A stretch of 35,715 nucleotides of DNA from a virus, in IMG/VR virus record IMGVR_UViG_3300020180_000062, positions 1-35,715 of that record, one strand, 5' to 3'. Of the stretch, positions 10,466 to 18,367 are shown in pieces (position 1 is the stretch's first letter; each line of letters opens with the position of its first letter). The position numbers and the translations under genes were made by a program. Under the pieces are notes generated by a model, which had not been told where the DNA came from, did not search any database, and saw nothing but the letters and a program-made list of their open reading frames with translations.

Positions 10466-10515
10466 ATTTAAGATTCCTTATTAATTAAATAACATTAATT
10501 ACCAATTAAATTTTG

Positions 10516-10893
10516 TTAATACTCTTCTGGTAATAGCAAAACGGTACGTTTTTCAGAGGTATAATCGCCGGAGCTGCTACATATTGCCCAAAGCTTTATA
10601 GGCGTTTCTAAGGTGGTTTGGATCCGCTGGGTGATGATAACGGCGTCATTATCTTTGATGGTGAAGTCCATTTCGCCGTGGTACCCGCTGGGTGTGAGTG
10701 CCACAACAAGGAGGTAACCAAGCCCTTTGATTTTCCCTAAGCTCATAACATAACTAGCTAGGGTGTCAAGGAACCAATAACATTTTAAGTCGTTACACAA
10801 TTGCATCACGCCGGGGGTAGCTACCCAGTTACGGGCGAAAGGGCTAAACGCGTAGTACCGGCCACTTTCATAAGTTGTTTCTAGGGTTTCCAT
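10516..10893 (-). CDS. DUF6876-like protein
   Basis: This 125-residue protein matches the pattern of the DUF6876 family: GVMQLCNDLKCYWFLDTLAS (family: G-V-x-x-L-x-x-x-x-x-C/A-Y-W-L-x-D-x-I-A-S), followed by strands and a QRIQTTLETPIKLWA block near the C-terminus. The family is widespread in phages and plasmids, but its function is unknown to me. The ATG is preceded by GAGGAAG. The 97-base gap upstream contains an 18-bp palindrome and possible promoter elements, so this may start a transcription unit. Confidence 0.7.
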   Translation of the reverse strand: METLETTYESGRYYAFSPFARNWVATPGVMQLCNDLKCYWFLDTLASYVMSLGKIKGLGYLLVVALTPSGYHGEMDFTIKDNDAVIITQRIQTTLETPIKLWAICSSSGDYTSEKRTVLLLPEEY

Positions 10894-10990
10894 TTTTAAA
10901 CTTCCTCTACTTACATTAAATATAGTAACAAGGGCATTTTAAATTAGAACTAATTTATTAAGTTTGTAAAGTTATAGACTGTTTCAATAG
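10894..10990 (-). promoter_or_regulatory. A+T-rich intergenic region with operator-like palindrome
   Basis: A perfect 18-bp dyad, taaattag and ctaattta around a central aa, lies at 10940-10957. On the minus strand a TTTACA-like element overlaps its upstream side and TAATTT (spacing about 18) lies within it, with TATATT further down. This looks like a promoter carrying an operator for the DUF6876-like gene. The promoter hexamers are weak matches; the palindrome is certain. Confidence 0.4.
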
Positions 10991-11350
10991 TTAATTCTTG
11001 CAGTACTCTCCGGGATGTAGCGCATCATAACGCTCCGCAATGGTCTCAACCTCCGCATCACTCAAAGCTATCTCTCTAACCTCGCACGTCGAATCAAAAT
11101 AAAGCGCACTCACCGCGTCACCGTCTGCGTTATAGGTTATGTCTAGGTACCGCGTTGGCCCCCCGCAACTCAATAGCACCCGGTAAATGGTTCGCACCTC
11201 GACAGCTAACACGTCGCTCTGCGTGCGCTCTTCAAGGAGGAGTTTAAATTCTTTATCAGTCGCCGTTTTTGCGCCTAGCTCCGCCGTTATTTCATATTTC
11301 AGGTTCCGCTGCTCGAGTTCCGCAGCCAGTTCTTTGCAAATGTCTTTCAT
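10991..11350 (-). CDS. Hypothetical protein
   Basis: This 119-residue protein is not recognised. It has a charged N-terminal helix (CKELAAELEQRNLKYEI), a strand-rich middle (VLAVEVRTIYRVLLSC, YLDITYNADGDAVSALYF) and an acidic helix near the end. A strong AAAGGAG ribosome binding site precedes the ATG. It lies between two other small early genes in the same orientation. Confidence 0.7.
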   Translation of the reverse strand: MKDICKELAAELEQRNLKYEITAELGAKTATDKEFKLLLEERTQSDVLAVEVRTIYRVLLSCGGPTRYLDITYNADGDAVSALYFDSTCEVREIALSDAEVETIAERYDALHPGEYCKN

Positions 11351-11383
11351 TGTGTTTGCTCCTTTATTTCTATTTACTAATTA

Positions 11384-11767
11384 CTAATAACCGCCTGCAC
11401 GGCGTGCATCTCTTGTTGCGCGTGCGTTGTCGCCCCTATTATGCTTTTCATCCAAGGCCTCGCCCCGCAAGGCCTCATCAGGCCAGGGCTTGCGCCATAC
11501 GCCGTTACGGTATAGGTTACGGCCTTTGATGGTGGTTTTTGTGCCGTCCTCAAGCAACAGAGTAAAAGTGTGTTGTTGCTTAGCGGCGCCGTAGCCATCA
11601 TTCACAAGCATTGCGGTAACAATCTCAAGATGGCTAAAGCGTGGGCTTTTGTAGCTCCCTGCAAAAACCGCTTTCTGAAACCGGACACTATCGCCTGTGC
11701 AGCAGTCACCCGTAGCGTTGATTGTGTAAACAGTATCACCCTTATAATCTGGGTTAGTGTACGGCAT
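11384..11767 (-). CDS. Hypothetical protein with LLEDGT...KGRNLYRNG block
   Basis: This is 127 residues from the ATG at 11767, chosen because GGGAGGAG lies 8-10 bases upstream; the open frame extends further but without a site. The middle segment reads KQQHTFTLLLEDGTKTT then IKGRNLYRNGVWRKPW. The tail is basic (NARATRDARRAGGY). The LLEDGT-x-T-x-I-x-G-x-x-L stretch resembles the LLEDGTLTIIQGDPL stretch in the paralogous pair at 12859-13729, so a shared domain is possible. Function is unknown. It starts two bases after the previous stop codon. Confidence 0.72.
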   Translation of the reverse strand: MPYTNPDYKGDTVYTINATGDCCTGDSVRFQKAVFAGSYKSPRFSHLEIVTAMLVNDGYGAAKQQHTFTLLLEDGTKTTIKGRNLYRNGVWRKPWPDEALRGEALDEKHNRGDNARATRDARRAGGY

Positions 11768-11768
11768 T

Positions 11769-11981
11769 TTATTGCTCCTCCCTCGCCTTATGCACAAACT
11801 CATCCCATTCGCATGCTATGGCCTCCACCCTAGCCAGCCTTGAATATAAGCGTGCTAGCTTGACTTCCATCTCTGGTGTTTGTTTAGGGCTATCTACGAT
11901 ACGCTGGATGGCATTGGACAACTTAAACGCTTTGCTTATCAAATCCACCTCACTTAGCGTGTAGTAGTGGTCTCTAGTCAT
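11769..11981 (-). CDS. Small helical hypothetical protein
   Basis: This 70-residue protein is predicted almost wholly alpha-helical and charged (LISKAFKLSNAIQRIVDS, KLARLYSRLARVEAIACE). The ATG is preceded by AAGGAAC. Its stop TAA is two bases before the start of the next gene, and its last codons contain that gene's GGAG site, so the two are coupled. No family is recognised. Confidence 0.7.
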   Translation of the reverse strand: MTRDHYYTLSEVDLISKAFKLSNAIQRIVDSPKQTPEMEVKLARLYSRLARVEAIACEWDEFVHKAREEQ

Positions 11982-11993
11982 TTTGTGGGTTCC

Positions 11994-12344
11994 TTATACA
12001 ATGGATAACGTGTACGTGAAGTAAAATTTGGTGTGATACCGGGTAATAACAAGCTTTAGGGTCTTGCCGTCCAGTGTTGTGCCGTCCTCATCGGGGTAGG
12101 TGACAAGCCAACCTCTTGCAGCCTGCGGATTCCGTGAATCGGCATCGACTAGGACAAACTCACTCCGGCGTAATTCTCTAACGGCCTTGAGGAGTCCAAT
12201 TTGCGGGCAAGTCTTGACGGTTTCCCGGACCAGTACGGGGGCTTCACCCGGCGGCGACTCAATATGGTGGATGTCGGTAAGGGTTAAGGTTTGCCCCTCC
12301 CTGGCTAGTAAGGCTTTAAGCTCTTCCAAAGTTAGAGTTTCCAT
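11994..12344 (-). CDS. Hypothetical protein, distant member of the three-gene paralogue family
   Basis: This 116-residue protein begins TLTLEELKALLAREGQTLTL and ends with a LDGKTLKLVITRYHTKFYFT block. The layout matches the pair at 12859-13263 and 13295-13729 (TLTRQALQDLL ... VTLTLT ... LLEDGTLT ... HHLVYTV). I take it as a diverged paralogue. The ATG is preceded by AAAGGAACC. Three 29-bp repeats lie immediately upstream. Function unknown. Confidence 0.7.
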   Translation of the reverse strand: METLTLEELKALLAREGQTLTLTDIHHIESPPGEAPVLVRETVKTCPQIGLLKAVRELRRSEFVLVDADSRNPQAARGWLVTYPDEDGTTLDGKTLKLVITRYHTKFYFTYTLSIV

Positions 12345-12359
12345 TTTTTGGGTTCCTTT

Positions 12360-12446
12360 CTCAGGATAATAAAAGTTGAGGGCATCACCTCAGGATAATA
12401 AAAGTTGAAGGCCTCACCTCAGGATAATAAAAGTTGAGGGCATCAC
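12360..12446. repeat. Three tandem 29-bp repeats
   Basis: Copies lie at 12360-12388, 12389-12417 and 12418-12446; copies 1 and 3 are identical and copy 2 differs at two bases. On the minus strand each unit reads GTGATGCC...TTATTATCCTGAG and can fold into a short TGAGG/CCTCA hairpin. The third copy contains the stop codon of the gene at 12443-12781. There are no unique spacers, so this is not CRISPR. Confidence 0.95.
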
Positions 12447-12781
12447 CTCAGGTGACGCGGGCCGAACCAGTCCATAAATTCCTCAGGGGATGCGGCGTAG
12501 ATTGACCCACGCACGGCTTTTTGTTGAGGCCCGCGCCAACCATCATCTTTATAAACATCGCCAGAATGACTGTCTATAAAACAATAAGCAGATTTAACGC
12601 CTTGGTCATCGGTCCGCACGATCCGCACAAAGCGCCTGCGATCTCCTGAAACTAGCGGGTCAAACCCTAAAATGGGGCAAGGCCAAGAATATCCCTGATG
12701 ATTTGCGGCAACTAGCGCCTGGCATTTGTTTATAAAAAGTTGTATTTTCTGGTTAAGCGTTTTTAGCTCCTCGGCTGTCAT
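12443..12781 (-). CDS. Conserved-looking phage protein, function unknown
   Basis: This 112-residue protein contains RRFVRIVRTD, AYCFIDSHSGDVYK and GWRGPQQKAVRGSIY. The order F-V-x-I-V ... F-I-D-x-x-x-G-D-V-Y-K ... W-x-x-P ... R-G-S-I recurs in small proteins of many unrelated phages and gives a family-level match without a function. An N-terminal helix (ELKTLNQKIQLFINKCQALV) precedes the domain. A copy of the repeated promoter lies immediately upstream, with AAAGGAG directly after its -10 box. The gene ends inside the 29-bp repeat array. Confidence 0.75.
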   Translation of the reverse strand: MTAEELKTLNQKIQLFINKCQALVAANHQGYSWPCPILGFDPLVSGDRRRFVRIVRTDDQGVKSAYCFIDSHSGDVYKDDGWRGPQQKAVRGSIYAASPEEFMDWFGPRHLR

Positions 12782-12799
12782 CGGTTTGTCTACTCCTTT

Positions 12800-12828
12800 A
12801 TAATAACTCGGTACGTGTAATTTAGCAA
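12800..12828 (-). promoter_or_regulatory. Repeated early promoter, copy A
   Basis: On the minus strand TTGCTA (12823-12828) and TATTAT (12800-12805) are separated by 17 bp, a good sigma70 match. AAAGGAGT follows the -10 box directly, as in copies B and C (AATGGAGT in copy D). The start codon of the downstream gene is only 18 bases past the -10 box. A transcript starting at the usual distance would therefore be nearly leaderless and would lose most of that Shine-Dalgarno sequence. Confidence 0.7.
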
Positions 12829-12858
12829 TAGGTTTGTAACGGTTTGTGAAGTTATGTT

Positions 12859-13263
12859 TTATGGGCCTTGCGTCGTGGCGACGGTATAAACTAGATGGTG
12901 AGTTATGCCGCCTACTTTAAGCGGATCCCCTTGGATGATTGTTAAAGTGCCATCCTCTAGCAAAGCGTTACCCTTAGCGGGATAATCGATCCAAGCTTTG
13001 ACACTCTCCCCGTTACGGTCAATTGTTGTTAAACAAAAGTCTTTGCTACGGATGCCGGATACTTTACGCGCTACGCCTAACGCAGGATGATTATTAGCAT
13101 CTTGCTTGATATAATCCCCGATAAATGTATAGTTTGGGTATTGACTTTGACCCTCCAAGGGGACATAAAAAACCCTATAACTTTGGGTTAGTGTGAGAGT
13201 TACACTATTGCCCTTCGTGCCTGTTAATAAGTCTTGTAACGCTTGCCTAGTCAATGTTGCCAT
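12859..13263 (-). CDS. Hypothetical protein, paralogue 1 of tandem pair
   Basis: This 134-residue protein begins with the same 14 residues as the next upstream gene (MATLTRQALQDLLT). It shares the layout VTLTLT-x-SY-x-V-x-Y, F-x-GD, HP-x-x-G, a V-x-G-I strand, YP-x-K, LLE-x-G-x-LT and VY-x-V. It is probably a compact beta-rich domain. The leader and first codons are nearly identical in DNA to those of the neighbour, showing a recent tandem duplication. The start ATG follows AAGGA. Function is unknown; early host-takeover or counter-defence is only a guess. Confidence 0.72.
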   Translation of the reverse strand: MATLTRQALQDLLTGTKGNSVTLTLTQSYRVFYVPLEGQSQYPNYTFIGDYIKQDANNHPALGVARKVSGIRSKDFCLTTIDRNGESVKAWIDYPAKGNALLEDGTLTIIQGDPLKVGGITHHLVYTVATTQGP

Positions 13264-13298
13264 TTTATTGTGTCCTTATCAATTAATAAACGATTTAT
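13261..13298. repeat. Duplicated 38-bp leader, copy 1
   Basis: This block is identical to 13727-13764. It contains the start codon, AAGGA ribosome binding site and upstream A+T-rich leader of one paralogue, plus the stop codon of the gene before it. The duplication therefore took the entire translation initiation region. Confidence 0.9.
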
Positions 13299-13729
13299 AC
13301 AGGTTTACTGGTTAACTGCCATTGTTTACCACGCGCCGATTTAGTCACGCTATAAACCATGTATAGCGTTACCGTGTTTGCCATTATTGGGTTGCCAGTC
13401 ATTAGCGTTAACCTCTTTCCCTCCAATAAAACGCCATGCTTAGGCGGATAGGGTTGTTGCTCTTGCGTCATCGTGCCGTCGCTCCCTACACGCAATAGGC
13501 TAAAATAATCATTAGCAACCCCACAAACTTCATAAGGTATGCCGATTGATGGATGATCGGGATGGTTTAACCTTGCGTGATCTCCAGTGAATTTATATCC
13601 TGTATGTTTGTATTGCTCTGCTTTGGGAGCGTACAAAACACTGTAACTTGAGGTTAGTGTGAGAGTTACAATATGGTAAAGCTCTGCTGTTAATAAGTCT
13701 TGTAGCGCTTGCCGTGTTAGTGTTGCCAT
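13295..13729 (-). CDS. Hypothetical protein, paralogue 2 of tandem pair
   Basis: This 144-residue protein is the partner of the gene at 12859-13263, with an identical N-terminal 14 residues and similar strands throughout (VTLTLTSSYSVLY, GYKFTGD, GVLLEGKRLTLM). It has a longer basic C-terminal tail (KSARGKQWQLTSKPV). Its stop codon lies inside the downstream copy of the duplicated leader. ATG with AAGGA upstream. No known family is recognised. Confidence 0.72.
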   Translation of the reverse strand: MATLTRQALQDLLTAELYHIVTLTLTSSYSVLYAPKAEQYKHTGYKFTGDHARLNHPDHPSIGIPYEVCGVANDYFSLLRVGSDGTMTQEQQPYPPKHGVLLEGKRLTLMTGNPIMANTVTLYMVYSVTKSARGKQWQLTSKPV

Positions 13730-13764
13730 TTTATTGTGTCCTTATCAATTAATAAACGATTTAT
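13727..13764. repeat. Duplicated 38-bp leader, copy 2
   Basis: Second exact copy of the 13261-13298 block, in the same position relative to the second paralogue. A shortened, diverged relative lies just upstream of the gene starting at 13931 (aattaataaataatttgtgg). Confidence 0.9.
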
Positions 13765-13931
13765 GCCGGTTTGCCTTTGATGTATTTAGCCAGTTCTCCA
13801 GCTACGTACTGTTTAAATAAACTTTTGGCTTCTTTTTTTGTGTAACCCATGTACTTCTGTATATACTTCTGGTTACCGATGATAGCGCTTATTTCCAACG
13901 CGCCAGATGGATGCGCGTAATCAATTATCAT
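13761..13931 (-). CDS. Small hypothetical protein
   Basis: This is 56 residues from the ATG at 13931, with GGGAG 8 bases upstream; an in-frame TTG at 13949 is less likely. The sequence has two strands followed by YIQKYMGYTKKEAKSLFKQY. The Y-x-G-Y-T-K-K-E-A stretch is a common feature of very small phage proteins of unknown function. Its stop codon lies in the duplicated leader of the following paralogue. Confidence 0.65.
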   Translation of the reverse strand: MIIDYAHPSGALEISAIIGNQKYIQKYMGYTKKEAKSLFKQYVAGELAKYIKGKPA

Positions 13932-13972
13932 TTGTTTGCTCCCTATCAATTAATAAATAATTTGTGGGGTAG

Positions 13973-13995
13973 TGGAGCAGGATTAACCTGCTCCA
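13973..13995. repeat. Repeated hairpin, copy 1 (after the amidotransferase gene)
   Basis: Arms ggagcagg and cctgctcc flank attaa, extended by one T-A pair: a perfect 9-bp stem, 5-nt loop. The same hairpin occurs at 16171-16193 and 16482-16504. All three lie just after a leftward stop codon but lack a T tract, so they may be RNA processing/stability hairpins or protein-binding sites rather than intrinsic terminators. Confidence 0.85.
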
Positions 13996-14004
13996 TCGTG
14001 GGAA

Positions 14005-14838
14005 TTAAATGCTTATCATGTTGGAGTAGTCCCCTCTTCGATCCTCCTCCTCCTCCTCTCCTCTTAATAGACTGATTGCCTCCTTGATATAGGCGCGCAT
14101 CCTTACGATATTTGCGACGCTTAAAGCATCCTCTAACAGTTCAATAGCGGCAAAACTGCGATCATCAGATGGCCACGCGTCACGGTCGATTAGTTGATCG
14201 TCGTCATATCCGTACGCTTTGCATGTGCCTCCGACGTCGTACAGGTCAAATTTATGATAGGTATTAGAGTAATAACAACCATTAGGCTCTAACGTGTGTC
14301 CGGTTTGGTCGATCATGACGTCAAACGTTTGGTTTTTGTTTATTATTTGTTGCCAAACTATAAATTTACCGTGTCCTAGTTTGGTTAATTGCTCTAGGTA
14401 CGGCATGCGTTGAACCGGGTCGCATTTTGCTAGCACTTCCGCCAAAATTGCGGAGTCACTCTTTAACGCATTTTGCCAGTATGGGCCTTGTAATATGCCA
14501 TTGTGGGCAAAATATGTTTTATTACCTAAATTAAATGGGTGTATATTGTTTGTGTCGATTAGCCCATGTGTTGCCTGCCTCCCGTGTAGTAAAAACGCTT
14601 GCCCTTGGATGGCGCTTGCAAACACTTGATCCAGTACTTGCGGATCGTAAGTTGTTTTTTCTACGCTCCAGCCTTTGCTTGACCCTTGTTTTTTTATGGG
14701 TAAGGGCAATAGTTTTATGGGTCGATCTAGTGCCGTTGACATTATCCCTAAACCGTGTGGATAAGTGTTTGCGACTTGCTCCAGCTCCTCCCTGTCAAAC
14801 GTATGATGATTTACGTCACTTGCTACAATTACGCACAT
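14005..14838 (-). CDS. Class II (Ntn-type) glutamine amidotransferase
   Basis: This 277-residue enzyme would hydrolyse glutamine and deliver ammonia to a partner synthase or ligase. Cys2 directly after the initiator Met is the expected N-terminal nucleophile. HGRQATHG (Arg87, His91), NNIHP (His100), AHNGIL (Asn113, Gly114) and KSDS (Asp128) reproduce the glutamine-binding pattern of GlmS/PurF-type domains. No synthase domain is fused, so a separate partner is needed. The overlapping upstream gene encodes an amidoligase, which is the obvious candidate. The C-terminus has a poly-Glu run from GAG/GAA codons. The ATG overlaps the stop of the amidoligase gene by 10 bases. Catalysis is well supported by motifs; the pairing is inference. 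Confidence 0.88.
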   Translation of the reverse strand: MCVIVASDVNHHTFDREELEQVANTYPHGLGIMSTALDRPIKLLPLPIKKQGSSKGWSVEKTTYDPQVLDQVFASAIQGQAFLLHGRQATHGLIDTNNIHPFNLGNKTYFAHNGILQGPYWQNALKSDSAILAEVLAKCDPVQRMPYLEQLTKLGHGKFIVWQQIINKNQTFDVMIDQTGHTLEPNGCYYSNTYHKFDLYDVGGTCKAYGYDDDQLIDRDAWPSDDRSFAAIELLEDALSVANIVRMRAYIKEAISLLRGEEEEEDRRGDYSNMISI

Positions 14839-15782
14839 GCTGTTACTAGCTCCCTATCTACTGTTAAGTTATAAAAGCGGTTAGCCCATTTTGCAAAGTC
14901 TTGTTTTAAATCCGCGTCGATCGGGACTAGGATGTTTTGCGCGGGAATGCCTAGCTCTTTGACGTGTGCATAGATATTATTGAACACGTGTGCGCTGTTC
15001 GCGATTATTAGGCTTAAACGCGTTATATCAACGCTCGGAGCGGGTAGCCTGAATTCGATCCGGTCATCTTTTAGTCCTACCGCGCTAAATTTGCGATGAG
15101 GTGAAAAGCCAGATTGACAATAGTCATTATAATCACGGCCAAAGTATCGGATCCTCTGGTCAAACCCTAGTTGATCGATAAATAGCGTGGCCTCTTTTGC
15201 GACGGTATATAGATCATTGTGTGTGTGGTTGTCCCACGACATGTTCACGTGTAGCCCACAACGATCACTAGTCCGTAGCCTGTAAAAAGTTAATATGCTT
15301 TCCATTAATTCAACTTGTTTAATCACGCTTAACGGTCGCGTTTGGATCTCGATCCCGTCGTCGCCTAAACTACTATCACTAGAGACTTCGACCTTGCCGG
15401 GGTACTCATGTATTAAGTAGTCTTTTGCCTCCCTTGGAGTGTCGTTCTCTGAATAACATTCGTATTCTAAACCGATTGCTAAAGTGCCGGGTTCCGTGTG
15501 TTCATCTTGACGCTTAAAACTACAACTTTGGTAGCTTATCGTTCCACCACCATCATAATCATCATCATCATCATCATCTTCTGCATCAAAATGATAGCTT
15601 TCTGTGCTATCGTGGTAGTGCACTTCTCCGCGATTGTAGTATAGGTTTCCTTCCCCTTCGACGTTTACAAATTCATCCTCCATGCAGGTAGGGCAATTGA
15701 TGATCGTCGTTGAATTGTCCTCTCGGATTAGTAGGTAATTAGCGCAGTTTTGACACTCGACCGCACGATAAGCTTGAGGCAT
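14829..15782 (-). CDS. Zinc-ribbon amidoligase (GS-like COOH-NH2 ligase)
   Basis: This 317-residue putative amidoligase (Amidoligase_2/GS fold) would join a carboxyl to an amine using ATP. After the linker come IGLEYE (Glu106, Glu108), DSSLGDDGIEI (Asp136, Glu145), CGLHVNMSW (His178, Asn180) and RIEFRLP (Arg241, Glu243, Arg245), the family's metal, nucleotide and substrate positions. Residues 1-40 form a zinc ribbon (Cys10, Cys13, Cys30, Cys33), and a poly-Asp stretch at about 67-76 forms a linker. The ATG has AAGGAG upstream. The downstream class II amidotransferase overlaps it, suggesting ammonia from glutamine is ligated to an unknown carboxylate, or that the pair modifies a peptide. The zinc ribbon could bind a nucleic acid or protein target. 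Confidence 0.85.
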   Translation of the reverse strand: MPQAYRAVECQNCANYLLIREDNSTTIINCPTCMEDEFVNVEGEGNLYYNRGEVHYHDSTESYHFDAEDDDDDDDYDGGGTISYQSCSFKRQDEHTEPGTLAIGLEYECYSENDTPREAKDYLIHEYPGKVEVSSDSSLGDDGIEIQTRPLSVIKQVELMESILTFYRLRTSDRCGLHVNMSWDNHTHNDLYTVAKEATLFIDQLGFDQRIRYFGRDYNDYCQSGFSPHRKFSAVGLKDDRIEFRLPAPSVDITRLSLIIANSAHVFNNIYAHVKELGIPAQNILVPIDADLKQDFAKWANRFYNLTVDRELVTACA

Positions 15783-15847
15783 TTTAGAACTCCTTATTAC
15801 TTTACTTTTTACTCATCACTTTACTTAATTTGTGGGGATGGCGCAGG

Positions 15848-16039
15848 TTAAACCGGGTCGCATTTTGCCATCACGTCGGCGGTCACGCGCATTGCCCAAA
15901 TTGCGTTTTCTTGCGCCCATATTTGTTTATCTAACGCATCGATGCGGTGAACATCCGGATCATCTTTTATTGCCTCGCTTTGGGCTAACCTGCGTAAGGC
16001 TTCCAGCGCGTCGACTAGTTGCGGGTCATCTTGTTGCAT
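15848..16039 (-). CDS. Small helical hypothetical protein
   Basis: This 63-residue, helical, acidic N-terminal protein (LVDALEALRRLAQSEAIKDD) is preceded by AAAGGAG and by promoter copy B. Its last nine residues, ADVMAKCDPV minus the first, nearly match AEVLAKCDPV inside the adjacent amidotransferase, and 18 bases of DNA are identical there. Its stop codon lies in a decayed copy of the repeated hairpin. Function unknown; promoter B probably drives it together with the amidoligase pair. Confidence 0.65.
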   Translation of the reverse strand: MQQDDPQLVDALEALRRLAQSEAIKDDPDVHRIDALDKQIWAQENAIWAMRVTADVMAKCDPV

Positions 16040-16099
16040 TGTTTTGCTCCTTTGTTTTATCTGATTTATTTGGTGTGTTGTGCTCCCCTCGACTCCTTT

Positions 16100-16128
16100 A
16101 TAATAGCGCAGTACGTGTAATCTAGCAA
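16100..16128 (-). promoter_or_regulatory. Repeated early promoter, copy B
   Basis: On the minus strand TTGCTA (16123-16128) and TATTAT (16100-16105) are 17 bp apart. Conservation with copies C and D continues upstream (gttacaaac and aactgg blocks) and downstream (GGAGTC). It lies ahead of the small gene at 15848-16039 and, further on, the amidoligase pair; no other promoter is evident for these. Confidence 0.75.
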
Positions 16129-16170
16129 TAGGTTTGTAACAACTTGTTAAGTCCAGTTTTAAGGGAGGGA

Positions 16171-16193
16171 AGGAGCAGGATTAACCTGCTCCA
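16171..16193. repeat. Repeated hairpin, copy 2
   Basis: Same 8-bp stem and attaa loop as copies 1 and 3, about 10 bases after the stop of the gene at 16203-16361 and about 40 bases upstream of promoter B. Together with the promoter it forms a roughly 110-bp block almost identical to the one at 16402-16511. Confidence 0.85.
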
Positions 16194-16202
16194 TTGTGTG
16201 GT

Positions 16203-16361
16203 TTAGGCGGTTAACGTACTTAATAGCTCTTCCGCGTCGCGTCGACTCCCTTCAACCGATCGCCTTGTCGCGTCGTTGATATCTAACGCTAGGTAATCGG
16301 TCGCGATGACAATAATTTTTCTTAGCGCAACGATTGAAGCGGTTTTGCGTGTATCGTTCAT
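16203..16361 (-). CDS. Very small hypothetical protein
   Basis: This is 52 residues from the ATG at 16361, which has AAGGAG about 8 bases upstream; the open frame runs further but without a site. It is mainly helical (TASIVALRKIIVIATDYLAL, then a basic/acidic helix). Its own promoter (copy C) lies about 50 bases upstream and its own hairpin (copy 2) follows. No family is recognised. Confidence 0.62.
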   Translation of the reverse strand: MNDTRKTASIVALRKIIVIATDYLALDINDATRRSVEGSRRDAEELLSTLTA

Positions 16362-16410
16362 TGTGTGGGCTCCTTGTTTGTTTGTTTGGTGTGTTGTTCT
16401 TGACTCCTTT

Positions 16411-16439
16411 AATATAGCGCAGTACGTGTAATCTAGCAA
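16411..16439 (-). promoter_or_regulatory. Repeated early promoter, copy C
   Basis: On the minus strand TTGCTA (16434-16439) and TATATT (16411-16416) are 17 bp apart; the spacer is identical to that of copy B. It is followed by AAAGGAGTC and then, about 35 bases on, by the true ribosome binding site of the gene starting at 16361. Confidence 0.75.
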
Positions 16440-16481
16440 TATGTTTGTAACAACTTGTTAAGTCCAGTTTTAGGGGAGGGA

Positions 16482-16504
16482 AGGAGCAGGATTAACCTGC
16501 TCCA
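16482..16504. repeat. Repeated hairpin, copy 3
   Basis: Same stem-loop as copies 1 and 2, directly after the stop of the gene at 16515-16841 and upstream of promoter C. No T tract follows. Confidence 0.85.
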
Positions 16505-16514
16505 TTGTGTGGGG

Positions 16515-16841
16515 TTAGGCGCTTAACTCCTTTGTGATGGCGCTTAACACCCGTAGGCTTAAACCAGAGCGGCACAACCTAAAGTTCCCTGTCTGTATCG
16601 CGACCATACCGCCGATTGATGCGCCATCGGTACCCCATACCGATCCGGGTTGTGTCTGGTCGATTGAATGCAAAATGTTGTTTGCAAGGCTTTCCGCTTG
16701 CCCGAACTCTTCGACCCCATTTATTTTAATAGACACACACAAAACCCCTTCACCGGGTTGTGAAAGCGTCGCTCCTCCTGCTTTGGCCATTGCGATCACT
16801 TCTTGTGCGGTTTGGGTTGCGGTTGGTGTTGGTGTAGGCAT
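16515..16841 (-). CDS. Hypothetical protein, first gene of the leftward arm
   Basis: This 108-residue protein has a Thr/Pro repeat at its N-terminus (MPTPTPTATQ) and a compact alpha/beta domain (VLCVSIKINGVEEF, AESLANNILHSI, GSVWGTDGASIGGM, NFRLCRSGLSLRVLSAIT). The ATG is preceded by AAGGAG and lies about 45 bases after promoter D. As the gene closest to the outermost leftward promoter it is probably among the first expressed after infection, when host-takeover proteins are made. No family is recognised, so this role is only positional inference. Confidence 0.68.
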   Translation of the reverse strand: MPTPTPTATQTAQEVIAMAKAGGATLSQPGEGVLCVSIKINGVEEFGQAESLANNILHSIDQTQPGSVWGTDGASIGGMVAIQTGNFRLCRSGLSLRVLSAITKELSA

Positions 16842-16892
16842 TTGTGGGCTCCTTGTTGTTGTGTTGTGTTGTTGTTTGTTGTTGACTCCATT

Positions 16893-16921
16893 AATATAAT
16901 CGACTGCGTAGGATATAGCAA
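16893..16921 (-). promoter_or_regulatory. Repeated early promoter, copy D (outermost leftward promoter)
   Basis: On the minus strand TTGCTA (16916-16921) and TATATT (16893-16898) are 17 bp apart. The spacer has diverged from copies A-C while both hexamers and the upstream gttacaaac block are retained, which argues for selection on the promoter elements. It should start the leftward early transcript. Confidence 0.75.
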
Positions 16922-17380
16922 TAGGTTTGTAACAACTTGTAAAGTCCAGTTATAAAGCTTAAAGTTGTATGCTAATGGCATTTTAAAATTACCTAACCAA
17001 TTAGTTGATCCGGCAATCGGCGCTTGCTTTGTGGGTCGATTACAAAGGTACCTTAATTTGACATTTTATAAAAATAGTAGTGTAGGGTAGTATATACGAT
17101 ATATATACGATTTGTAGTAAGTGTTTAAAGGCCTTTTTTGACCCTTTTTTGACCCGTCACCAGAACATGCACAAGGCGCCACTTTGCATCCCCTAATGGC
17201 TAGAGACTCCAGAAAACACGTTTTGCTAGACAATGCCCATACACTGCCTGCCTAAACAGTCATAAAACCCTGGTTGACCGACATGCATCATTATTTAAAC
17301 AAACTATGGATTCACTCTCCTTTTAGCATACAAAATGGGCGGACCTTCCCACTTCCCTTTATATAGTAATTGATTCCATT
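16922..17380. other. Long non-coding divergent region, candidate origin
   Basis: No credible gene is seen here. It contains tatatacgat twice with an 11-bp period (17091-17111) and ccttttttgac twice with an 11-bp period (17132-17153), both A+T-rich. A TTGACA (about 17059) has only a weak -10 partner. Helically phased A+T-rich direct repeats between divergent arms would suit a replication origin or a regulator-binding region, but nothing proves it. Confidence 0.4.
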
Positions 17381-17384
17381 GGGT

Positions 17385-17413
17385 TTGCGACCCTAAATAA
17401 CGTCTGATAATAT
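17385..17413 (+). promoter_or_regulatory. Candidate rightward (late) promoter
   Basis: TTGCGA (17385-17390) and TAATAT (17408-17413) are 17 bp apart, resembling the repeated leftward promoters. Initiation near 17420 would give a roughly 300-base leader ending at the terminator at 17721 before the first late gene. The -35 matches consensus at four positions. Confidence 0.5.
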
Positions 17414-17720
17414 TAATTCTGTTCGTTTTCCCTATTTTTGGGCGGGTCGGACCCAAAAAATGGGGGGTGCCCCCCCCTTGACAATAAAAACAGTACCCCC
17501 AGGGTAGGGCGGTACCACGATATTTCTGAGTGTACCCTTCTGAAAATAAATACGGGGGTACTATGCTTCACCATTTGGAGACATTTACGGGGGCCACAAT
17601 ATGAGCCGGATATTTTTCGAAACTTCCACCCCACTTCCCCTTTACCAAACATGGGAGACAATAAAAGCAGAACAAGTGAAGTTGTTTTAATTTTTACTCT
17701 CCCTCTTTTTTAAACGTTAC
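17414..17720 (+). other. Structured, non-coding late leader
   Basis: I see no believable gene on either strand. The region has nested palindromes: tttttggg (17435-17442) with cccaaaaa (17452-17459), G6 (17462-17467) with C8 (17470-17477), and agtaccccc near 17491 with gggggtact near 17553. These would fold strongly in RNA. With a promoter before it and a terminator after it, it could be an antitermination leader or encode a small RNA. Confidence 0.4.
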
Positions 17721-17759
17721 GCCCAGTAGCCGTCAACCGCTATTGGGCTTTTCTTTTTT
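17721..17759 (+). terminator. Rho-independent terminator ahead of the late genes
   Basis: Arms gcccagtagc (17721-17730) and gctattgggc (17739-17748) form a 10-bp stem with one G-T pair and an 8-nt loop, followed by ttttctttttt. It is oriented for rightward transcripts and stands 54 bases before the small terminase gene, so late transcription must read through it or begin after it. A TATAAT at 17769-17774 has no good -35. Confidence 0.88.
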
Positions 17760-17812
17760 AAAACAAGATATAATGGGTTGAGTGAAGTGGACCTCTGTGG
17801 AGTTTTTTTAAA

Positions 17813-18367
17813 ATGCTCACGCCTGGCCAACAGACGTTTGTTGAATACTACGCGCGCACGAAATGCCTGAAAACTGCTGCGGTAGCCGCAGGAGTGCCCA
17901 TCAATATGGCCTTGGCGCAAGCAACCCAATGGTTAGGTAAGGGCGAGGTTATCAAGGCGGTTCAGCAGTCCCAGACCGAGCAGTCCAACAATCTTGATGA
18001 GCATCGTAGAAGACTTTTGCAGCACACGATGGCCTTGGCTACATCTGATGTCAGCAATGTGCTGTTTGAAGATGAGAGCGGCGAGCTGCAACTGCGCAAG
18101 CTTAATGACATGACCACCGAAGCCCGATGGGCCATTAAAAAAATACAGATAACTGAATCCCCCGTCCCGTATTCTGACACCCCACGGCGGAAGATATCGC
18201 TAGAGATGCACTCTAAGACTGACGCGCTGAACAACGCTATTAAAGTGTTGGGCCTGGACAACACAAATATTACCCACCATTTCAGTGCCCGTGAAATCGA
18301 ATCCATGGACTCCGTCAAACTAGATGACCTGATGAAAGGGCTCACCCGTGCAGGAGGCGATGATTAA
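17813..18367 (+). CDS. Terminase small subunit
   Basis: This 184-residue DNA-recognition subunit of the packaging motor has the Terminase_2 N-terminal pattern: LTPGQQTFVEYYARTKCLK then TAAVAAGVP, a helix-turn-helix region. A helical oligomerisation region follows and then an acidic tail. It would bind the packaging site and load the large subunit. The ATG has GGAG about 11 bases upstream and follows the leader terminator. Its stop codon overlaps the start of the large subunit gene (TAATG). The role is inferred from position and the N-terminal pattern. Confidence 0.85.
   Translation: MLTPGQQTFVEYYARTKCLKTAAVAAGVPINMALAQATQWLGKGEVIKAVQQSQTEQSNNLDEHRRRLLQHTMALATSDVSNVLFEDESGELQLRKLNDMTTEARWAIKKIQITESPVPYSDTPRRKISLEMHSKTDALNNAIKVLGLDNTNITHHFSAREIESMDSVKLDDLMKGLTRAGGDD

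Follow-up and report, generated by a model that had tools for sequence, protein, structure and literature searches.

The two genes analysed here lie on the minus strand of a 35,715-bp virus contig (hereafter the window, meaning the whole stretch of DNA that was analysed), where a gene for an amidoligase of the glutamine synthetase (GS) fold overlaps one for a class II glutamine amidotransferase (GATase) (Table 1). The source virus is a tailed phage, with genes for DNA polymerase A, primase and helicase on the minus strand of the window and terminase, capsid and further structural genes on the plus strand. No relative at the DNA level was present in the phage collection we searched, no full-length relative was found in searches of viral sequences, and end repeats were not recognised in the record. 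The record is possibly a fragment, and the absences of cassette genes reported below therefore hold for the ORFs of the window. G+C content is 0.42-0.47 in the early accessory region (window 10500-18000) vs. 0.51-0.59 elsewhere in the genome, and a scan of the window with Rfam and ARAGORN found no ribosomal or other RNA feature.

Table 1. Features of the ligase-GATase locus and its surroundings (window positions)
Feature	Position	Strand	Details
Ligase gene	14829..15782	-	317 aa: zinc ribbon, acidic linker, GS-fold amidoligase core
Zinc ribbon of ligase	15684..15755	-	aa 10-33, C10xxC13, C30xxC33
Acidic run EDDDDDDD of ligase	15558..15581	-	aa 68-75, joins zinc ribbon to core
Ligase core	14877..15503	-	aa 94-302; E106, E108, D136, E145, H178, R216, E243, R245
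Class II (Ntn-hydrolase) GATase gene	14005..14838	-	277 aa, Cys2
Overlap of ligase and GATase genes	14829..14838	-	10 nt, from ORF coordinates
63-aa ORF, function unassigned	15848..16039	-	Head of the unit with ligase and GATase
Promoter-like repeat, ~99 nt	16063..16161	-	Core TTGCTA-N17-TATTAT (16128-16100); lies 5' of the 63-aa ORF and both enzyme genes
Hairpin GGAGCAGGTTAATCCTGCTCC	13974..13994	-	Directly 3' of the GATase stop codon
Hairpin GGAGCAGGTTAATCCTGCTCC	16172..16192	-	Upstream boundary of the pair's unit
Hairpin GGAGCAGGTTAATCCTGCTCC	16483..16503	-	Third identical copy
Four promoter-like repeats, ~99 nt	12763-12861, 16063-16161, 16374-16472, 16856-16954	-	Shared core TTGCTA-N17-TATWWT, then GGAGTC

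The early region is divided by promoter-like repeats and hairpins. The core shared by the four repeats has exactly these four matches, compared with none in 100 shuffles, and the repeats are probably the phage's early leftward promoters. All three 21-nt hairpins come right after a stop codon, two of them directly before a promoter-like repeat; they carry no U-tract, and a role as terminator or in processing is possible. The order within the pair's unit—repeat (16161-16063), 63-aa ORF, ligase, GATase, hairpin (13994-13974)—places the pair in a small early transcription unit bounded by a promoter-like element and a hairpin. Elsewhere among the early genes, two adjacent paralogous proteins (12859-13263 and 13295-13729, both on the minus strand) each start with MATLTRQALQDLLT and match nothing in Pfam or PHROG, and a 29-nt tandem repeat is present in 3.2 copies at 12360-12452 (CTCAGGATAATAAAAGTTGAGGGCATCAC).

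The 63-aa ORF was considered as a possible carrier peptide and set aside: neither phages nor any of the loci fetched gave a homologue, so it is not a conserved substrate. A 34-nt stretch of the GATase gene (14409-14442, minus strand; AEVLAKCDPV) recurs with 85 % identity at 15847-15880 on the same strand, which is the extreme 3' end of this ORF (ADVMAKCDPV, then stop). DNA hypermodification was likewise rejected, with thymidylate-synthase-like, base-modifying and queC-type genes all absent among the window ORFs. The absence of an adjacent substrate gene, noted in an earlier reading made from the sequence alone, thus extends to the window as a whole, among whose ORFs neither a DNA-hypermodification gene nor any other substrate gene was recognised.

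The ligase ORF is intact, with an AAGGAG ribosome-binding site 5' of its ATG. Compared with Pfam Amidoligase_2 (PF12224), the window ligase gave nothing above the gathering cut-off, while the same model is matched by 50 of 57 ligase relatives (best E 2.9e-32), and proteins of distant relatives from the viral contig search (L001-L003, 28 % identity) also exceed the cut-off. A leave-one-out profile, built from 92 non-redundant relatives with the window ligase excluded, recovered it at 61 bits (E 9e-17). The motif series of the protein, GLEYE - IEIQTRP - CGLHVNMS - RIEFRLPAP, runs in the same order as in E. coli GlnA, where the matching motifs are GPEPE - SGMHCHMS - RIEVRFPDP, and its residues are, we presume from knowledge of the fold, the equivalents of the metal and ATP-site residues of glutamine synthetase. 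Across 66 aligned relatives, E106, E108, D136, S138, E145 and H178 are invariant, E243 and R245 are kept in 65 (the remaining one having a gap), and R216 is conserved in 63; the ExE, D/E...E, H, R and ExR pattern of the GS fold is complete in the window ligase. Because single-sequence hhalign comparisons with E. coli GlnA and PuuA gave no signal, the residue mapping onto GlnA is founded on motif order and fold. The AlphaFold model (residues 94-299) superposes on glutamine synthetases with a best Z of 13.5 over 178 residues, and the third-ranked Foldseek match is YbdK, a glutamate-cysteine ligase; rows from annotated phage records were omitted from the alignments used for structure models. Judged by sequence and model, this protein is an Amidoligase_2-like GS-fold ligase with predicted ATP-dependent amide ligase activity.

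Upstream of the ligase core, the zinc ribbon described by the sequence-only reading is indeed present (C10xxC13...C30xxC33), but it is not the added module it was taken for: 41 of 66 relatives have at least two CxxC motifs N-terminal to the core, and the ribbon, being this common, is not special to the window phage. The acidic linker is less general, with an acidic run of at least five residues in 12 of 61 relatives vs. approximately 2 expected from shuffled linkers, and the AlphaFold model has low confidence in this region.

The GATase ORF is also intact and begins with MCVIV; its domain spans aa 2-198, followed by a tail (aa 200-277) that forms the low-confidence part of the AlphaFold model. 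Its score against Pfam GATase_4 is 21.0 bits, slightly below the cut-off of 23, and a leave-one-out profile that excluded it retrieved it at 82 bits (E 5e-23). The Pfam check suggested by the sequence-only reading thus returned neither protein above threshold, whereas profiles built from relatives recovered both. C2, H85, R87, T90, N113, G114 and D128 are invariant in all 56 aligned GATase relatives; they include the nucleophile (C2), the glutamine-binding arginine (R87) and the NG oxyanion pair (N113, G114), so that both enzymes keep the expected catalytic residues, and the loss of such residues in relatives, named beforehand as grounds for refutation, was not seen. Among solved folds, the AlphaFold model is closest to EgtC (Z 13.4, also Foldseek rank 1), followed by GlmS (11.5), YafJ-like (11.2) and PurF (10.4), while sequence profiles rank two ammonia suppliers, GlmS (E 3e-10) and PurF (E 3e-9), nearest among GATases of solved structure. 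The EgtC model TIGR03442 of NCBIfam gave 16.8 bits, not reaching its cut-off of 218.65, and of 50 family members, 41 have GATase_4 as their numerically best Pfam model; the profiles from Pfam, NCBIfam and the PDB are discordant or too weak to sort EgtC-like from GlmS-like by sequence. We classify the protein, from its residues and modelled fold, as a stand-alone class II GATase with predicted activity, in which the gamma-glutamyl-binding site is secure and the leaving group could be ammonia or another amine. ORFs, leave-one-out profiles and AlphaFold folds therefore agree on the overlapping GS-fold amidoligase and class II GATase genes originally called at this position.

Survey of related loci revealed that the two genes are seldom apart. 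A GATase gene lies within 5 kb of the ligase bait in 51 of 54 non-redundant viral loci, two of the three exceptions being at contig ends, and a ligase gene lies within 5 kb of the GATase bait in 46 of 51. The ligase comes first, on the same strand, in every viral pair surveyed, with a spacing below 50 nt in most. Bacterial genomes, mainly of gut Clostridia, hold the pair in 69 of 79 related loci, and Clostridium prophages carrying it have been reported (PMC11318856); a search of plasmids for the GATase gave no match. Homologues lacking the partner throughout, the other ground for refutation named in advance, were accordingly not what we found. Even between very distant viruses and mobile elements, the pairing is near-obligate and its order does not change, and together with the fold and residue evidence it bears out the proposal that ligase and GATase act together in the early region of this phage. 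Protein distances of ligase and GATase correlate (r = 0.39, with permutations reaching at most 0.08), for which shared virus ancestry may be the cause. No ligase-GATase fusion protein was seen among the relatives surveyed. PADLOC matched neither the pair nor its relatives, and we rejected the idea of a known defence system on that basis.

The bacterial copies reside in mobile elements, since a serine resolvase family gene (approximately 37 loci), a tyrosine integrase gene (17 loci) or relaxase genes lie near by. Under a strict phmmer count, large serine recombinases are found near few of the bacterial pairs, and the recombinase cluster consists mostly of small resolvases. In loci from gut Clostridia (L213-L291), a small serine resolvase gene often lies 3' of the pair on the same strand, which suggests a recurrent integrative element that carries the pair.

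Most viral pairs have no further enzyme of the known cassettes in reach: 75 of 99 non-redundant pairs are bare, with an ATP-grasp gene near 18, a gamma-glutamyl cyclotransferase (GGCT) gene near 6 and a COOH-NH2 ligase gene near none. The subset flanked by at least 4 kb in each direction (n = 38) has 29 bare pairs, 7 with ATP-grasp, 2 with GGCT and again 0 with COOH-NH2 ligase. All three are absent from the window ORFs, as judged by Pfam and by profiles from phages tf and RIO-1. Clustering of neighbours gave no third obligate partner but lineage-specific genes, in addition to the ATP-grasp and GGCT genes just counted. Individual loci depart from the bare form, such as MW202828 (L014 4001-5218), where a GATase fused to a GGCT lies directly 3' of a divergent ligase, or two large viral contigs (L018 and L042) in which the pair has an additional GATase copy and an ATP-grasp gene near it, and in which the N-terminus of the ligase is rich in CxxC motifs.

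The idea that such a pairing is remarkable in a phage does not survive comparison with the literature, since the pairing is widespread and already published (PMC5498523, PMC3890496, PMC10580990), in many cases accompanied by genes for ATP-grasp, GGCT and COOH-NH2 ligase enzymes. The pair has been described in phages tf, LUZ24, RIO-1, Marvin and MEP401/402, several of which have it within a five-enzyme "peptidoglycan modification" cassette. In PSA-HP1 and RIO-1, the cassette comprises a GGCT, a GATase, a gamma-glutamyl amidoligase, a second amidoligase and an ATP-grasp enzyme, and is presumed to change the peptidoglycan and guard against superinfection (PMC5498523); that paper traces the peptidoglycan hypothesis to Iyer 2009 and Hardies 2013. 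LUZ24-like phages have a similar cassette (PMC3890496; PMC11945000), the amidoligase-GATase pair of OM43 phages and Marvin has been discussed (PMC10580990), and phage-ZRK32 has amidoligase, GATase, glutathione-synthase-like and GGCT genes (PMC10945688). When a Pseudomonas phage was put through directed evolution, its amidoligase and GATase genes each acquired missense changes (PMC11450229). The ligase-GATase unit is thus already described in phages, and the window pair is a divergent further example. Our literature search, whose reach did not extend to Iyer et al. 2009, found no paper demonstrating a substrate or a benefit. That study is reportedly the founding analysis.

Our preferred explanation, which we hold tentatively and at nearly even chances, is that the pair forms a two-enzyme, glutamine-dependent amide-forming module. 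The GATase would hydrolyse glutamine to ammonia, supplied directly or nearby; the ligase would spend ATP on turning a carboxylate into its activated form, an acyl phosphate, and attack by the ammonia would convert the carboxylate into a carboxamide. A conserved cytoplasmic carboxylate seems the most plausible target, because no export signal was seen in either protein and very different bacteria have phages and elements with the module; it could be, for example, a glutamate or diaminopimelate residue in a peptidoglycan precursor, whose amidation early in infection might put competing phages or lysins at a disadvantage. Peptidoglycan precursor as target is a hypothesis of the literature and a reasonable inherited guess. 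The high proportion of bare pairs means that the two enzymes must be useful without a third, which suits a glutamine-to-amide reaction, and the closeness of the GATase to GlmS and PurF in sequence profiles argues for amidation as well. Against it stand the EgtC-like fold, the preference of most family members for the GATase_4 model, the GATase-GGCT fusion, which suits gamma-glutamyl chemistry, and the lack of any ligase-GATase fusion, a form that might be expected if ammonia were channelled.

These opposing observations keep gamma-glutamyl cleavage in play as the main rival to amidation, although we consider it doubtful. Here the ligase, or a host enzyme, would make a gamma-glutamyl amide that the GATase-fold enzyme cleaves, in a protect-and-release or salvage scheme. 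There is precedent in ergothioneine synthesis, where EgtA and EgtC make and cleave a gamma-glutamyl amide, EgtC being the enzyme that takes the gamma-glutamyl group off. The EgtC-like fold of the GATase, the rank of YbdK among ligase matches, the GGCT genes near six pairs and fused to a GATase in MW202828, and the enzyme set of phage-ZRK32 (PMC10945688) are all consistent with such a cycle, but the bare loci offer no enzyme that could act between bond making and breaking, GlmS and PurF models outscore EgtC by sequence, and TIGR03442 scores far below its cut-off. With the bare pair as the commonest form, a complete two-enzyme reaction is favoured over a make-and-break cycle needing a third enzyme.

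Two further alternatives concern the target. The ligase's zinc ribbon and acidic linker, and the 63-aa ORF that opens the unit, would be compatible with modification of a host or viral protein—for instance an RNA polymerase, a translation factor or the ligase's own acidic linker—with the ribbon as recognition part; given that the acidic run is limited to a minority of relatives and that the small ORF is without homologue in other loci, this appears improbable. A role in auxiliary nitrogen metabolism, in which the pair would shift host glutamine, glutamate or ammonia pools with no specific modified target, has been proposed for phage-ZRK32 of deep-sea Planctomycetes, a phage that affects growth; those effects were seen for the whole phage and not for the genes singly (PMC10945688), and the N-terminal zinc ribbon and the spread over all kinds of host point instead to one particular macromolecule or precursor as the target, making this role quite unlikely. 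Returning to amidation, we also entertain, as a long shot, the bolder version in which the pair is a self-sufficient weapon or shield of mobile elements, amidating one conserved host molecule that need not be peptidoglycan and serving both lytic phages and the integrative elements of gut Clostridia by excluding competing elements or blunting defence. If so, the five-enzyme cassette would be an elaboration of the bare pair.

Phage amidoligase and GATase genes have been annotated repeatedly, with their role given by analogy alone. In our survey, the minimal unit proved to consist of two genes, near-obligate and in fixed order, common to viruses and integrating elements, and its bare two-gene form offers the simplest system for a direct test of the assumed role in peptidoglycan modification or superinfection.

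Among known systems, EgtC (the gamma-glutamyl hydrolase of the ergothioneine pathway, 4zfj) provides the solved fold nearest to the window GATase and shares its Cys2, yet the two are 16 % identical and the other ergothioneine genes are absent from the window. MurT/GatD, in which GatD is a class I-type glutaminase, serves as an analogy alone for how the window pair might work, the enzymes being unrelated. In Staphylococcus aureus, MurT, a Mur-ligase homologue, and its glutaminase partner amidate a carboxylate of peptidoglycan precursors (PMC3267633). Closer to the window, the five-enzyme cassette of phiEco32, RIO-1, PSA-HP1, tf and LUZ24, whose modification of peptidoglycan is a literature hypothesis, likewise combines an Amidoligase_2 enzyme with a class II GATase among early or replication genes, and in phage tf the amidoligase lies immediately 5' of the GATase, as in the window. 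The window differs from this cassette in having no COOH-NH2 ligase, ATP-grasp or GGCT gene, and its ligase carries a zinc ribbon that the tf and RIO-1 ligases do not have. The nearest counterparts in layout are MEP401/402 of the OM43 phages, Marvin gp105/106 and the Manatee Spring podovirus MW202733: their proteins are only 17-28 % identical to those of the window, but all have the two-gene unit in the same order, adjacent or overlapping, and several share zinc-binding CxxC motifs upstream of the ligase core.
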